The notes below the pieces were generated by a model. The model did no database searches. It saw only the letters and a list, made by a program, of their open reading frames with translations, and was not told where the DNA came from. From Streptomyces kanamyceticus (lineage in GTDB: Bacteria > Actinomycetota > Actinomycetes > Streptomycetales > Streptomycetaceae): DNA of 64,000 nt. The position numbers were made by a program, and so were the translations under genes. Shown one piece after another: positions 17,611 to 23,182 of the stretch. The stretch spans positions 2,480,001 through 2,544,000 of the forward strand of contig NZ_CP023699.1 in the NCBI RefSeq assembly GCF_008704495.1. Direction: 5' to 3'. The first letter of the stretch is position 1. The number at the start of each line of letters is the position of its first letter.

Positions 17611-18441
17611 ATGCCCGAGCTGCGGCGCGTCCCCGTCAACGGTGTCGAACTGAACGTCGCTCTCGCCGGATCGGGCCCGGCCGTACTCCTGCTGCACGGC
17701 TTCCCGCACACCTGGGAAGTGTGGACGGACATCATGGCCGACCTGTCCGACCGCTACCGCGTCATCGCCCCGGACCTGCGCGGGTTCGGCGCGAGCAGCC
17801 CGGCCGCCGCCGGGTACGACGCGGGCACCCTGGCCGAGGACGCCGCGGCGCTCCTCACCACGCTCGGCGTGTCCTCGGCCGCGGTGGTGGGCATCGACGC
17901 GGGTACCGCACCGGCCTTCCTCCTCGCCCTGCGCCGCCCCGGTCTCGTCCGGCGCCTGGTCGTCATGGAGTCCCTCCTGGGCAGGCTGCCCGGCGCCGAG
18001 GACTTCCTCGCCGACGGGCCGCCGTGGTGGTTCGGGTTCCATCGCGCCGCGCCCGGCCTCGCCGAAACCGTGCTGGAGGGCCACGAGGCCGCCTACATCG
18101 ACTGGTTCCTGCGCGCCGGGACGCTCGGCGACGGAGTGCGCCCCGCCCTCCGCGACGCCTTCGTCCGCGCGTACACCGGCCGCCAGGCGCTGAGCCGCGC
18201 GTTCTCGTACTACCGGGCGCTGCCCGCGAGCGCGGAACAGATCGAGCGGGCGGTCGCCACCGCCCGCCTGACGGTGCCGACGATGGCATTGGGCGCCCGG
18301 CCCGTCGGTACCGCGCTGGAACGCCAGCTCCGCCCGGTCACCGACGATCTCACCGGACACGTCATCGAAGACTGCGGCCACATCATCCCGCTGCACCGCC
18401 CGCGCGCCCTGCTCGCTCTGCTGCGTCCGTTCCTGGCCTAG
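17611..18441 (+). CDS. Alpha/beta hydrolase of the epoxide hydrolase / dehalogenase type
   Basis: 276 residues. The oxyanion segment LLLHGFPHTWEVW is followed by DLRGFGASS. The nucleophile elbow is GIDAGTA, with Asp where most esterases have Ser, as in epoxide hydrolases and haloalkane dehalogenases. The final His lies in EDCGHIIPL. GGAG precedes the ATG. The substrate is unknown; divergent pairing with an HxlR regulator suggests induction by a reactive small molecule. Its TAG stop shares the CTAG tetranucleotide with the stop of the convergent gene. Confidence 0.8.
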   Translation: MPELRRVPVNGVELNVALAGSGPAVLLLHGFPHTWEVWTDIMADLSDRYRVIAPDLRGFGASSPAAAGYDAGTLAEDAAALLTTLGVSSAAVVGIDAGTAPAFLLALRRPGLVRRLVVMESLLGRLPGAEDFLADGPPWWFGFHRAAPGLAETVLEGHEAAYIDWFLRAGTLGDGVRPALRDAFVRAYTGRQALSRAFSYYRALPASAEQIERAVATARLTVPTMALGARPVGTALERQLRPVTDDLTGHVIEDCGHIIPLHRPRALLALLRPFLA

Positions 18442-19427
18442 CCCGCCGTCAGCGGATAGTGGTCCGACAGGTTCGTGTACGTGTACTGCTTGCCCCAGCT
18501 GGAGACCGTCCAGGGCGCGCTCTGCTCCTTGACCACGTTGTTGCGCCAGGAGGCCGGGCGGGCGTGGCCCTTGCGGTGGAGGACGTAGTCGAGGTCCTCG
18601 CGGGGGTCGTCCGGGTAGCGCTCGGCGGCGATCGAGTTGTCCTGGGTGTCGAAGGAGTACGGGTGGCCCGTGCGGCTGTCGGCCGGGGCGAAACCGCCGT
18701 CGGCGAGCATCGAGGCGTACTCGGAGCTGTGCGAGTCGACGTTGAAGTCGCCCGCCACGATGACCTGTTCACCCGCCGGGATGTTCTTGGCGGCGAGGAA
18801 GGCGTCCATCTCCTTGAACTGCTTCGCCCGGGTCGCCGCCGCCTCGCCGCTGCCGCAGCCCGGGTCGGTGGACTGGGTGTGCGTGCCCACCACGTGCGTC
18901 TTCGTGCCGTTCACATCCAGGACGGCGTAGACGAAGCCCTTGTTGGAGTACGAGTCGGAGCCGCACGCGTCCTTGTAGACGTACTGCTCCTTGCGCAGGA
19001 TCGGCCACTTGCTCAGGACCGTCACGCCGCCGTCCTCGGGGGTCACCGAGGAGTAGGCACCTCCGGTGGCGTCCCAGCCGCTCTTGCCGCGGCCCATCAC
19101 GGGCGTCTGGTGCGGGTAGCGGTCCTTGGCATTGGCCTGCAGCGCGTCGGACGAGGAGTTGTCGAACGCCTCCTGCAGCACGACGACGTCCTGCCCCTGG
19201 AAGAAGTCCGCGGCCGGTATCGCCTTGGCCCGGTGGTCCTGGCCCCAGTTCGGGTAGAGCGTCTTGCTGAACAGGAACGTGTTGTACGTGAGCACCTTGA
19301 GCGAGGGCGGCGCGGCAGACGCGTCGGCGGCCGCGGTCGCGGACGGGGCGACGGCGGCGAGCGTGGCGGCGGCGAGCACGGTGGAGATCGCGGTCGCGTG
19401 GGTCCTGCGCAGCGCTGAGTGCGGCAC
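18438..19427 (-). CDS. Secreted sphingomyelinase C-like endonuclease/exonuclease/phosphatase-family protein
   Basis: 329 residues. A Sec-type signal (residues 1-36, ending SATAAADA) precedes the EEP fold: LKVLTYNTFLF, VVVLQEAFD, THTQSTD, VIVAGDFNVDSHS, EDLDYVL and the terminal LSDHYPL, i.e. the metal and catalytic Asn/Asp/His set. Length and order match bacterial neutral sphingomyelinases, which cleave phosphocholine or phosphate headgroups outside the cell. The GTG at 19427 has AGGAG six bases upstream. Substrate specificity is not certain. Confidence 0.83.
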   Translation of the reverse strand: MPHSALRRTHATAISTVLAAATLAAVAPSATAAADASAAPPSLKVLTYNTFLFSKTLYPNWGQDHRAKAIPAADFFQGQDVVVLQEAFDNSSSDALQANAKDRYPHQTPVMGRGKSGWDATGGAYSSVTPEDGGVTVLSKWPILRKEQYVYKDACGSDSYSNKGFVYAVLDVNGTKTHVVGTHTQSTDPGCGSGEAAATRAKQFKEMDAFLAAKNIPAGEQVIVAGDFNVDSHSSEYASMLADGGFAPADSRTGHPYSFDTQDNSIAAERYPDDPREDLDYVLHRKGHARPASWRNNVVKEQSAPWTVSSWGKQYTYTNLSDHYPLTAG

Positions 19428-19894
19428 TGAGACTCCTGGGTGTGGGGGGTGTTGCTGCGGGTTCCGGCCGTGCCGGAAGCGGCCGGTGTCCGGGCGCCCG
19501 CACATCCAACCAGCCACGATTACTTCTGGGGATACTTCGCGTGAACGCGGCGTTCACACCCGGGCGGGCCTTGGCGGGCCGGGACTGGCCTGGGCAGCCC
19601 CGGACGGTCCTGGGAGTCCTGAACGGTCCTGGGCAGTCCTGAACGGTCCTGGGCCGGGAACCCCGGAGGAAAGTCGCTCCCGCGCGGCCGAAATTGCCCC
19701 CGAACGGGCACCTCACGCGGGCGCCGACACCCCGTGGCGCCCTGGTCGACGGGCAGGGCCGGGCATCATCCCAAGCGCCTCCAGGCGCCCGCCGAAAGCC
19801 TTCGGACAGCTTCGAAGGATGCCCACCCATGCCTCCTGACCTGGGCATACGCGACAGTCGCCACCTACAATCGCCTTCCACGAAAGGGGACTTG
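19428..19894. other. 467-base gap with short tandem repeats
   Basis: It holds no credible gene. Three copies of ACGGTCCTGGG(C)AGTCCTGA (19-20 bp; 19604-19622, 19623-19642, partial 19643-19654) form a tandem array. The rest should contain the divergent promoters of the sphingomyelinase-like and methyltransferase genes. Confidence 0.6.
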
Positions 19895-20671
19895 ATGGAC
19901 CGCGACATCCACACGATCGACGACGTGATGAAGCTCCTCGACGGACTGTTCGCGCCGGAGGCCGACCGGTGGACCGCCGACGGGGCGGGCTGGTGGGACG
20001 GCTTCTACGCGGACCGCGGCAAGCCCGTGCCGTTCTTCGCCGCGAAGCCGGACGAAAACCTCGTCTCGTACGTGGAGCGAGGGCTGCTCACCCCGGGCCG
20101 CGCCCTCGACATCGGCTGCGGCCCCGGCCGCAACGCCCTCCATCTCGCCTCCCTCGGCTTCGAGGTGGACGCCGTCGACCTCTCGCCCGCCGCGCTCGAC
20201 TGGGCCGCGGGCCGGGCCGAAGAGGCGGGCGCCGACGTGCGCTTCCACCAGGGCGACGTCTTCGTACTGACGCGGACCGCGCTGGCCGGACCGTACGACC
20301 TCGTCTACGACTCGGGCTGCTTCCACCACCTACCGCCGCACCGCCGCATCAGCTATCTCGCGCTCCTGGACCGCGTCCTGGCCCCCGGCGGCCACTTCGC
20401 CCTCACCTGTTTCGCGGCAGGCGAGAACGGCATGGGATCCGAGCTGTCCGACGCGGAGTTCTACCGCACGGCGGGCCTGCACGGCGGCCTCGCCTACGAC
20501 GCGGACGCGCTGCGCCGGATCTTCGCGGGCCTGACGGAGCTCGAACTGCGCCGCATGCGCGACGAGAAGAACGGCTCGCCACTGTTCGGCGAGCCGTTCT
20601 TGTGGACGGCGCTGTTCCATCGGCCAGGCCTATCTCCTTCGCACCGGCAGGATCTGGGCGAAGGCGCGTAA
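19895..20671 (+). CDS. Class I SAM-dependent methyltransferase
   Basis: 258 residues. Rossmann methyltransferase motifs: motif I ALDIGCGPGRNALHLASLGFEVDAVDLS, motif II PYDLVYDSGCFHHLPPHRR, motif III LAPGGHFALTCF. It resembles small thiopurine/tellurite-type methyltransferases. The ATG at 19895 follows GAAAGGGGA. The last 42 bases overlap the end of the convergent small membrane protein gene. Substrate unknown. Confidence 0.85.
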   Translation: MDRDIHTIDDVMKLLDGLFAPEADRWTADGAGWWDGFYADRGKPVPFFAAKPDENLVSYVERGLLTPGRALDIGCGPGRNALHLASLGFEVDAVDLSPAALDWAAGRAEEAGADVRFHQGDVFVLTRTALAGPYDLVYDSGCFHHLPPHRRISYLALLDRVLAPGGHFALTCFAAGENGMGSELSDAEFYRTAGLHGGLAYDADALRRIFAGLTELELRRMRDEKNGSPLFGEPFLWTALFHRPGLSPSHRQDLGEGA

Positions 20672-20809
20672 GACCGTCGCGCGTTCTTCCGGGGCCGTGC
20701 CCCGGACCGCGATGGCGAGGGCGGTCAGGAAGGTCACGGCGATCACGATGACGGCCGCGAGCAGGATCTCGGGTGTTCCCGCGGCGAGTTCGAGCAGGAT
20801 GGTGGTCAT
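20630..20809 (-). CDS. Small membrane protein, function unknown
   Basis: 59 residues with one strong hydrophobic helix (ILLAAVIVIAVTFLTALAIAV, about 14-35) and a charged tail ending ILPVRRR. GGAGG precedes the ATG with ideal spacing. It overlaps the 3' end of the methyltransferase gene on the opposite strand. No family recognised. Confidence 0.6.
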   Translation of the reverse strand: MTTILLELAAGTPEILLAAVIVIAVTFLTALAIAVRGTAPEERATVLRAFAQILPVRRR

Positions 20810-21250: not shown

Positions 21251-22315
21251 CTACGCCCGCCCCGACCGCACGAGCCGCACCTTGTCGACCCCGAGGAGCC
21301 CGGCGAGGGGCACCTTCGCGGTGGTCTGCCGCGGGTCGACCGTCATGCCGTCGGCGCGCAGGATGTCGAGGAGTTGACCAGCGAGCGGCATCACCATGTG
21401 CCGCCCCCAGCAGCGTTCGGAGACGTGGCCGAAGGGGAGGTAGCCGGGGTGGTCGTCGGGGTCGAGGGCGGCCCAGCGTTCGGGGCGGAACTCGTCGGGG
21501 TCCTTCCAGAGCGCCGGGTCCCGGTGGCTGAGCAGCGGCAGCAGCAGGACGTCGTCGCCCGCGCCGATGCGGTCGTCGATGGCCGGGTACTCGGGGGACG
21601 CGTTGCGCAGGATGTTCCAGGACGGCGGCAGCAGCCGCATGGACTCGTAGAGGATGTGCTCGTTCGGCGTCTCGTCGTCGAACGGCGCCCCCAGCCAGTA
21701 CGCGTTGGCGACGAGCGTGGAGACGGTGAAGCAGACCGGGGCCGCGGCCCGCCGGTACAGGCCCATCGCGTACCGCCGGTCGCTGTAGCCCGTGGCGTCC
21801 GCGGTGAGGCCCGCGATGCTGGTGACGGGCGCTCCGGGACGGAGCCTGCCGGGCAGCGCGGCGCCGACGGCGATCACCGACCAGGTGAGTTTGGGCGTCA
21901 GCTCCAGGGTCCGGTCCATGAGGATGCGCAGCCGGTACGGGTCGGTGCCCAGGATCAGATCGCGCAGGTGGACGTGGCCGACGTGCGGCCACTCACCGGA
22001 GAGGTCGACGTTCCCGGGCACGGGTTCGCGCAGCGCCCTGCGTACGTCGCGGCCGATGGCCTGCATGACGGTGGACGCCTCGGTACGCGGGATCGAACGC
22101 CCGTGCAGCGGCTTGAAGGTGGGGCGTTCGCGTTCGGTGGCCGGGCGGGCGGCGAGGATCCGGTCGCTCTGCTCGGGCCCGGCGACGCCGACGGTGTCGG
22201 AGTCGAGGCGGAACACGTCCTCACCGCGGCGGTCGCGCAGCAGGGCATGGAGTCGCGGCGTGAAGACGGTGGTCCTGGACAGCCGGTCGGTACCGGAGGA
22301 GGGCGTCGGGGGCAT
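21251..22315 (-). CDS. Short cytochrome P450, candidate atropopeptide cross-linking enzyme
   Basis: 354 residues, shorter than the usual 390-420. The heme ligand Cys302 lies in FGHVSERCWGRHM; the K-helix E224-x-x-R227 is in YESMRLLPP; FRPERW follows. The usual I-helix (A/G)GxxT acid-alcohol pair is not visible: the corresponding stretch (FTVSTLVANAYWLGAP) precedes ExxR by only about 25-30 residues, so the I-J region is shortened. The ATG at 22315 has GGAG six bases upstream; a GTG at 22363 has none. It starts 137 bases downstream of the stop of the 26-residue AWYHWY peptide gene on the same strand, with nothing between. This matches the precursor-plus-P450 layout of tryptorubin-type RiPPs, where the P450 makes C-C and C-N aryl cross-links. 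Confidence 0.88.
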   Translation of the reverse strand: MPPTPSSGTDRLSRTTVFTPRLHALLRDRRGEDVFRLDSDTVGVAGPEQSDRILAARPATERERPTFKPLHGRSIPRTEASTVMQAIGRDVRRALREPVPGNVDLSGEWPHVGHVHLRDLILGTDPYRLRILMDRTLELTPKLTWSVIAVGAALPGRLRPGAPVTSIAGLTADATGYSDRRYAMGLYRRAAAPVCFTVSTLVANAYWLGAPFDDETPNEHILYESMRLLPPSWNILRNASPEYPAIDDRIGAGDDVLLLPLLSHRDPALWKDPDEFRPERWAALDPDDHPGYLPFGHVSERCWGRHMVMPLAGQLLDILRADGMTVDPRQTTAKVPLAGLLGVDKVRLVRSGRA

Positions 22316-22452
22316 CGGGGTCTCCAGGTGCGGGAGGCCCGCACCCGGCGGCTGGTCGGGCACGCCGGGCGCGGTCTCGACGGCGGTTACGTCCCTACGG
22401 GATGCGCACCCCCGTCAGCGTGCGGGATGCGCGCGGTGAGCGCGTCGCCGGC

Positions 22453-22533
22453 CTAGTACCAGTGGTACCAGGCGTACGCCTTGAGGCTCTTCTCTCCGGT
22501 GATCCTCTTCTTGAGCGAGCGAACGATCTTCAT
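22453..22533 (-). CDS. Atropopeptide-type RiPP precursor with AWYHWY core
   Basis: 26 residues: a basic leader beginning MKIVRSLKKRI and ending GEKSLKAY, followed by a C-terminal aromatic core AWYHWY directly before the stop. GGAGG lies seven bases before the ATG at 22533; an ATG two codons upstream is too close to it. The core differs from the tryptorubin A hexapeptide AWYIWY by one residue (His for Ile at position 4), and a short basic leader plus C-terminal core is the known atropopeptide precursor form. The adjacent P450 is the expected cross-linking enzyme. No dedicated protease or exporter is adjacent. A biaryl product using the YHW segment is an alternative outcome. Confidence 0.9.
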   Translation of the reverse strand: MKIVRSLKKRITGEKSLKAYAWYHWY

Positions 22534-22690
22534 GCACATGCCTCCGGTCAATTCCATTGGTACATGACTGACTTGGACTCGCGGAGCCTGTCCGTATCCG
22601 ATCAACAACTGATAAACGGGCAGGTGACACGCGATGACGGGCATTTCCGGAGTGTGCGGGAGAGCGCCGCGTGACCGCGCTGACGCGACG

Positions 22691-23182
22691 TCAGCGCACG
22701 GCCCTGCGACGCCCGCTCGGACGCCGGAGCAGCCCCGCCGTCACGACGGCCGCGAGACCGATGGCCAGACCCAGGAGGAGGCTCCTCGACACGTCGGGGT
22801 TTTCCTCGACCCACATCGGACCACCCTGGAAGAGGGAGCCGAGCGGCTTTCCGTTGCGTCCGGGGAAGCACGAGAGAACGGCGGCCACGGCGCACGTGCC
22901 GATCACCGCGGCGACGGCCGCGAGCAGCGCGGGACCCACGACGCGGGCGGAGCCCCCGCCGATCGCGCGGACCCGGCGCCGGGCCTCGCTCGCCACCATC
23001 ACGGCGACGAAGCAGAGGATGCCGATCACGACCGCGAAGACGTGGCCGCCGCCGGGGCAGAGGGCCACGCCGTGGCGCCAGATCCAGTCGCCGGAGGTAC
23101 CGATCGCCACGAGGGCGGCGAGGGCGGCGACTCCTTCGGCGACGGACGCGACACGGGTACGCTTCTGTACTTCTTCGGGCAT
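22691..23182 (-). CDS. Integral membrane protein, function unknown
   Basis: 163 residues with about four hydrophobic segments: near 15-30 (GVAALAALVAIGTSG), 45-64 (HVFAVVIGILCFVAVMVA), 82-105 (VVGPALLAAVAAVIGTCAVAAVL) and 135-152 (SLLLGLAIGLAAVVTAGLL). The loops hold several Cys. No family recognised. It lies 157 bases upstream of the RiPP precursor in the same direction; the gap suggests separate promoters, so a link to peptide export is only speculative. Confidence 0.65.
   Translation of the reverse strand: MPEEVQKRTRVASVAEGVAALAALVAIGTSGDWIWRHGVALCPGGGHVFAVVIGILCFVAVMVASEARRRVRAIGGGSARVVGPALLAAVAAVIGTCAVAAVLSCFPGRNGKPLGSLFQGGPMWVEENPDVSRSLLLGLAIGLAAVVTAGLLRRPSGRRRAVR

Follow-up and report, generated by a model that had tools for sequence, protein, structure and literature searches.

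The chromosome of Streptomyces kanamyceticus carries a genuine, intact member of the known atropopeptide family with a recurrent core. It consists of two adjacent genes on the minus strand, one for a precursor of 26 residues with AWYHWY at its C-terminus and one for a cytochrome P450. Both lie within the window, the whole stretch of 64,000 nucleotides that was analysed. Judged from sequence, the pair most likely forms a minimal cluster of two genes. The P450 is predicted to cross-link the Trp and Tyr residues of the core in a tryptorubin-like manner, and the His is likely to be left unmodified; we hold this reading to be a probable one. Since 683 putative atropopeptide clusters are counted in the available text of PMC11450843, the kind is well known. 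The features of the pair are as follows.

22541..22545, minus strand: ribosome-binding site GGAGG of the precursor gene, 7 nt 5' of the ATG (sequence)
22453..22533, minus strand: atropopeptide precursor gene, 26 aa, MKIVRSLKKRITGEKSLKAYAWYHWY, TAG included (open reading frame, NF038372)
22480..22491, minus strand: KSLK leader motif, residues 15-18 (sequence; motif as given in PMC11450843)
22456..22473, minus strand: core AWYHWY, residues 21-26, with His at core position 4 (sequence)
22322..22325, minus strand: ribosome-binding site GGAG of the P450 gene, 6 nt 5' of the ATG (sequence)
21251..22315, minus strand: atropopeptide-class cytochrome P450, 354 aa from ATG (homology, trees)
21635..21646, minus strand: ExxR motif ESMR, residues 224-227 (E224 and R227 invariant in 48 aligned sequences)
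21404..21433, minus strand: haem-binding motif FGHVSERCWG, residues 295-304 (Cys302 invariant in 48 aligned sequences)

A preliminary description of this DNA had pointed out the minus-strand reading frame, its GGAGG site, its AWYHWY end and the adjoining P450, and all of these were borne out in the sequence. The NCBIfam model NF038372, 'tryptorubin family RiPP precursor' (curated cut-off 33 bits), recognised the precursor with a score of 57 bits, and residues 1-26 of the peptide aligned with profile positions 1-26. When its codons were compared with those of His-core relatives in the same P450 group, synonymous and non-synonymous differences numbered 4 and 0 (L062), 4 and 1 (L084), and 2 and 1 (L046). 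A chance reading frame was rejected, since the NF038372 match, the synonymous differences, the ribosome-binding site and the genome-wide motif count given below all oppose it. An in-frame ATG further upstream would give a 63-residue reading; in relatives the extra N-terminal residues diverge and the final 26 are conserved. The genome is a single contig of 10.13 Mb, in which a 39-base stretch of the precursor is present once. The boundary of the core was set by analogy with the family (PMC11450843). A second motif-like sequence, RSLK, occupies leader residues 5-8 (22510-22521) and is also found in L046, L047, L062, L084 and L097. The earlier remark that most annotation pipelines miss genes this short no longer holds fully, since a curated NCBIfam model exists and AtropoFinder mines atropopeptides.

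The P450 gene lies downstream on the same strand, with 137 nt between the precursor stop and its ATG at 22315. A GTG at 22363 would give a form of 370 residues; the ATG is favoured by the GGAG site and by the relative P0001, which begins identically. This genome has one P450 homologue at E <= 1e-30. The Pfam p450 match is confined to residues 237-323 of 370, and homologues that adjoin atropopeptide precursors align with the enzyme over nearly its full length. A structure model had a mean pLDDT of 82.7, and a fold search with it returned the P450 fold only, with moderate similarity to solved P450s (TM about 0.5-0.6 among the matches listed). An assignment as an ordinary monooxygenase was rejected; the best sequence match among solved structures was weak (E 1.5e-10, residues 226-336 of 370).

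Two P450 trees were built, of 42 and 63 rows. For the first, 18 of 60 loci were excluded as same-genome repeats or cut P450s, with L077 and L023, from one genome, both kept; for the second, L023 and L036 were removed as repeats, and 20 loci and three proteins were added. The cut P450 of Streptomyces sp. A0642 (L082) is in neither tree and that of S. huiliensis (L079), also cut, is in both. The enzyme of the window grouped with those of L047, L046, L062 and L084, and in the second tree with L097 as well (support 99/98 and 100/98). It thus sits among precursor-associated P450s and not with unrelated enzymes, a placement that upholds the earlier proposal. A protein search scored 7998 sequences, 414 of them relatives at E <= 1e-20, and the named ones among the matches listed were mostly from Streptomyces. 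Also among those listed were P0028, P0030, P0045 and P0085, labelled as coming from Caulobacteraceae, Paraherbaspirillum and Collimonas, at 72-73% identity. Since these are closer than some Streptomyces P450s, their sequences suggest transfer of the P450 between phyla.

As defined in the available text of PMC11450843, an atropopeptide locus has a P450 of the class, a leader containing KSLK and a core whose second residue is Trp. The precursor has KSLK at residues 15-18 and Trp second in A-W-Y-H-W-Y, and the adjoining P450 belongs to the class by its grouping with precursor-linked P450s, in trees built without the reference WP_007820080.1. The bitryptide subfamily is described there by an xWxxWx core with a KSLK leader, which AWYHWY and the present leader match. 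Biarylitides have a five-residue precursor encoded by an 18-bp gene (PMC13417212, available text), against the 26 residues found here. The NF038372 score, these three defining features and the P450 placement together confirm the precursor-P450 pair that had been proposed.

The two genes co-occur tightly in Streptomyces. NF038372 matched 44 of 392 Streptomyces genomes, 42 of them above the cut-off, and none of 14 control genomes; a P450 homologue was present at all 30 of the NF038372 loci fetched. Conversely, 46 of the 392 genomes held a P450 at E <= 1e-100, 47 genes in all, and an atropopeptide-type precursor lay upstream of every one of the 47, in a search that was not blind, as short reading frames with aromatic ends were sought. 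The precursor is therefore conserved where the P450 is kept, a point on which the earlier proposal could have failed.

Some members depart from the usual pattern. Leaders with PSLK occur in four pairs (G315, G413, G343 and G390), and the precursor of L108 (G397), MKLIHSLKNKIRPEKNLKSYAWYIWY, has KNLK for KSLK and stands outside the motif list in the available text of PMC11450843. The same is true of Streptomyces sp. RPT161 (L075, 1373-1447, minus strand), whose precursor, MAKKIREAIFGARSFKRVAWYHWY, has RSFK for KSLK and reaches 18.4 bits with NF038372, below the cut-off of 33. The accompanying P450 shares 68% identity with that of the window and groups (100/100) with P450s of PSLK-type precursors. 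L014, L038, L041, L101, L103 and L107 form a distinct P450 clade (100/99) with the core AWYGWI, in which two P450 matches, in G019 and G188, contain an in-frame TGA.

A sister P450, 36-39% identical to that of the window, is present in four of the 392 Streptomyces genomes (L093, L094, L095 and L096) as a weaker match (E about 1e-62 to 1e-66). These genes lie 147-328 nt downstream of reading frames that end in a conserved DEDLAxHAWVLHVI; in L093 the frame is at 1239-1322 on the plus strand and the P450 at 1525-2580. The peptides lack KSLK, and His replaces the second Trp of atropopeptides (xWxxH). Two of the four AWVLHVI peptides were compared with NCBIfam and gave no meaningful match, and a literature text search for WVLHV found nothing. 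The group may be a separate family of P450-modified peptides, perhaps with a Trp-His bridge. Neither this sister family nor the RSFK leader was found in print in the literature searched.

The pair occupies the same chromosomal site in L045, L046, L047 and L084. On one side is DNA matching the gene at 18438-19517, a putative endonuclease/phosphatase-like gene as judged by eye, and on the other are TetR and MFS genes. The methyltransferase gene at 19895-20671, convergent with the pair, was rejected as a cluster member: L084 has no matching DNA, and among 76 genomes 12 of 13 other methyltransferase carriers lacked a P450 match and seven of eight other P450 carriers lacked the methyltransferase. 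Between the P450 and this gene is a 59-residue reading frame (20630-20809, minus strand, MTTILLELAAGTPEIL...) with a GGAGGA ribosome-binding site and a hydrophobic stretch. Upstream of the precursor is another of 163 residues (22691-23182, minus strand), without a Pfam or NCBIfam match; DNA matching it is present in L084 and absent at that place in L045, L046 and L047.

The site also bears on whether the pair is silent or decaying here and gives no product, for which we see only the slightest chance. A promoter scan upstream found no sigma-70-type match, as such a state might lead one to expect, but Streptomyces promoters often fall outside the model of that scan. Some family members may be broken, because the homologues in G019 and G188 have an in-frame TGA. 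Here, by contrast, neither gene is truncated, the ribosome-binding sites are good and the motifs intact, the precursor differs from its nearest relatives mostly by synonymous changes, and the chromosomal site is kept in four relatives.

AWYHWY had been put forward as a new core, and here the earlier proposal did not stand. A scan for AWYHWY followed by TRR through 84,980 species genomes (257 Gb) found 40 places in 36 stretches, with Trp (TGG) next at 24 of the 40 and a stop directly after at 16. Eight of these 16 belong to atropopeptide precursors, each from a Streptomyces genome: WAC 01529, G44, sk2.1, RPT161, ADI95-17, huiliensis, A0642 and silaceus. The other eight lack such a leader and set a chance expectation of about 2e-6 for a 64-kb stretch. 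The precursors or P450s of G218 and G286 differ from those in the scan, bringing the further His-core genomes to ten. A core unique to this genome was thus rejected, and with ten other Streptomyces genomes carrying AWYHWY precursors the pair looks like an ordinary representative of its known family. Main-text literature searches did not find AWYHWY, and the supplementary lists and figures of PMC11450843 may well contain it. Literature containing both YHWY and WYHW included nothing on atropopeptides among the matches listed, and the available portions of PMC13417212 and PMC13383641 hold nothing on an AWYHWY core.

Position 4 of the core is variable. Over the 47 pairs it is Ile in 17, Leu in 11, Phe in 7, His in 6 and Gly in 6, with the window among those with His. 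His-core leaders are of at least three kinds: RSLKK-ITGEKSLKAY in the window, TPEKSLKAY, and that of RPT161 with RSFK. In the 63-row tree, the ten P450s that go with His cores do not form one clade (AU p 1.55e-70; 307 log-likelihood units to unite them). Position 4 requires five changes on that tree, at least four of them forced by well-supported branches. The window's own group includes L047, with Ile at this position. The precursor peptides of L019 and L082 differ only in Leu or His at codon 24 (CTC/CAC), a single base; their stop codons also differ. Repeated gain or loss of His at position 4 was not found in print in the literature searched; the available text of PMC11450843 remarks similarly on the tryptorubin core.

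No column of the P450 alignment tracks His at core position 4, in a comparison that used the rows of the first tree minus L036 and counted one genome twice. Two columns, residues 49 (in the 370-residue form) and 18, parted the His rows from their nearest non-His rows (L047, L019 and L017). Both were rejected: the Asp of the His rows at residue 49 is also found in 22 non-His rows, and residue 18 lies in the ragged N-terminus. The pattern at position 4 fits a residue that the enzyme would tolerate rather than use.

Experiments on scabrirubin are relevant here (PMC12352619, available text). The enzyme ScaB accepted almost every substitution made at residues 24 and 25 of its precursor ScaA, I25R excepted, and His was among the substitutions at both; from the residue-25 variants other than I25R it formed the cyclic tetrapeptide that was expected. 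ScaA has 28 residues and ends in its core, TWFIWYS, so that by our count residue 25 corresponds to core position 4. Of 13 other natural precursors offered to it, ScaB cyclised 11, including one that gave WPHWY, with a loss of 2 Da; these results concern single C-N bridges and not the full tryptorubin pattern (PMC12352619). Because no P450 site tracks His and ScaA with Ile changed to His was still cyclised, His4 of the window peptide is probably a tolerated, un-crosslinked residue. The earlier suggestion that His would change the cross-linking is thus weakened, both by the exchange of Ile, Leu, Phe, His and Gly at position 4, with His gained or lost several times, and by the tolerance of ScaB and the absence from the alignment of a P450 column that follows this residue.

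The imidazole might nevertheless take part in a His-Trp or His-Tyr cross-link, a bridging pattern that would be new for atropopeptides; the predicted [M+H]+ of such a product (-8H) is 917.337 for the hexapeptide and 846.299 for the pentapeptide. P450s of another family, the biarylitide enzymes, do bridge His and Tyr (PMC11450843 and PMC12352619, available text), and the sister P450s with their AWVLHVI precursors, having His in place of the second Trp, hint at His as a partner there. Since the His core recurs, it may also be under selection. Set against this, position 4 swaps with Ile, Leu, Phe and Gly, most of which could form no such bond, and no P450 site follows the His; His in ScaA and in WPHWY gave a loss of 2H only, with the bridge between the first and fourth residues (PMC12352619). 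We therefore find an imidazole bridge very unlikely, and it would be equally surprising if AWYHWY introduced Trp-His or Tyr-His bridging to the atropopeptides, by a chemistry reached repeatedly through codon swaps at one position.

The reading in which His4 is left free leads to a definite course of events. The two genes, the family motifs, the P450 placement and the recurrence of the pair are seen directly, and the steps of the mechanism are ones that we infer. The KSLK leader would dock on the P450 and thread the core into its pocket. The single P450 would then make three bonds of the tryptorubin type, Trp2-Tyr3 C-N, Trp2-Trp5 C-C and Trp5-backbone C-N, with His4 as a variable position outside the cross-linking. 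In varsorubin B1, which is tryptorubin-like, the reported bonds are Trp1-Tyr1 C-N, Trp1-Trp2 C-C and Trp2-amide C-N, and the residue preceding the second Trp is absent from those listed (PMC11450843, available text). From these bonds and the ScaB results, two forms are predicted. A host protease encoded elsewhere would free AWYHWY-6H ([M+H]+ 919.352), and trimming of the Ala would give the pentapeptide WYHWY-6H ([M+H]+ 848.315). The mass sum was checked with AWYIWY-6H, computed as 895.377 against 895.376 reported for the lau hexapeptide (PMC11450843). The lau pentapeptide form has four bonds, made with a second P450 (PMC11450843); mass loss therefore sets a minimum for the kinds of bond and does not fix their places.

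From sequence one cannot predict how many cross-links form, and the same or a near core with a different P450 need not yield the same bridges. Varsorubins and scabrirubin have one or three cross-links from similar cores (PMC11450843, available text). A single-bridge (-2H) product, with predicted [M+H]+ 923.384 as hexapeptide or 852.346 as pentapeptide, is possible: with one Trp-Trp bridge the peptide would be monocyclic and scabrirubin-like rather than a tryptorubin-like cage, as scabrirubin, varsorubin B2a and the ScaB products have just one (PMC11450843; PMC12352619). This outcome is unlikely, in that the rooted tree sets the window P450 away from the Embleya P450s with the scabrirubin core, and AWY-WY is shared with tryptorubin, for which three bonds are reported. 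The likeliest product is a His analogue of tryptorubin A/B. A description of an AWYHWY product was not found in the literature searched.

With this pair, a recurrent core joins a family of very rigid peptides. At this one position His alternates with Ile, Leu, Phe or Gly, in one case through one base change in precursors that otherwise agree, and such a series tests naturally which parts of the core the P450 disregards. Because the His side chain is basic, binds metals and would sit on a rigid ring, the product could have properties absent from tryptorubin.

Tryptorubin A and B, with the core AWYIWY, are the closest named counterparts; tryptorubin B is also made from lauA and lauB1. They share with the window the two-gene plan, the KSLK leader, the core AWYxWY and a single P450 of the class, and differ in having Ile at core position 4, a likeness drawn without the tryptorubin P450 itself. 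For amyxirubin and clavorubin, the comparison is with the pair of Streptomyces clavuligerus, where the P450 is 70% identical to that of the window and the leader plan is alike. The reading frame upstream of it, a putative clavorubin precursor, ends in AWYIWW and so carries Ile in the fourth and Trp in the sixth place of the core. Scabrirubin (TWFIWYS; ScaB) is of the same family, and ScaB takes His at the residue matching core position 4 (PMC12352619, available text). It differs in its heptapeptide core and single bridge, and the two Embleya P450s beside TWFIWYS precursors are about 61% identical to that of the window. In biarylitides a P450 (P450Blt) likewise cross-links aromatic residues, but there His is a bridge partner and the precursor has five residues, in contrast to the 26-residue, leader-bearing precursor of the window.
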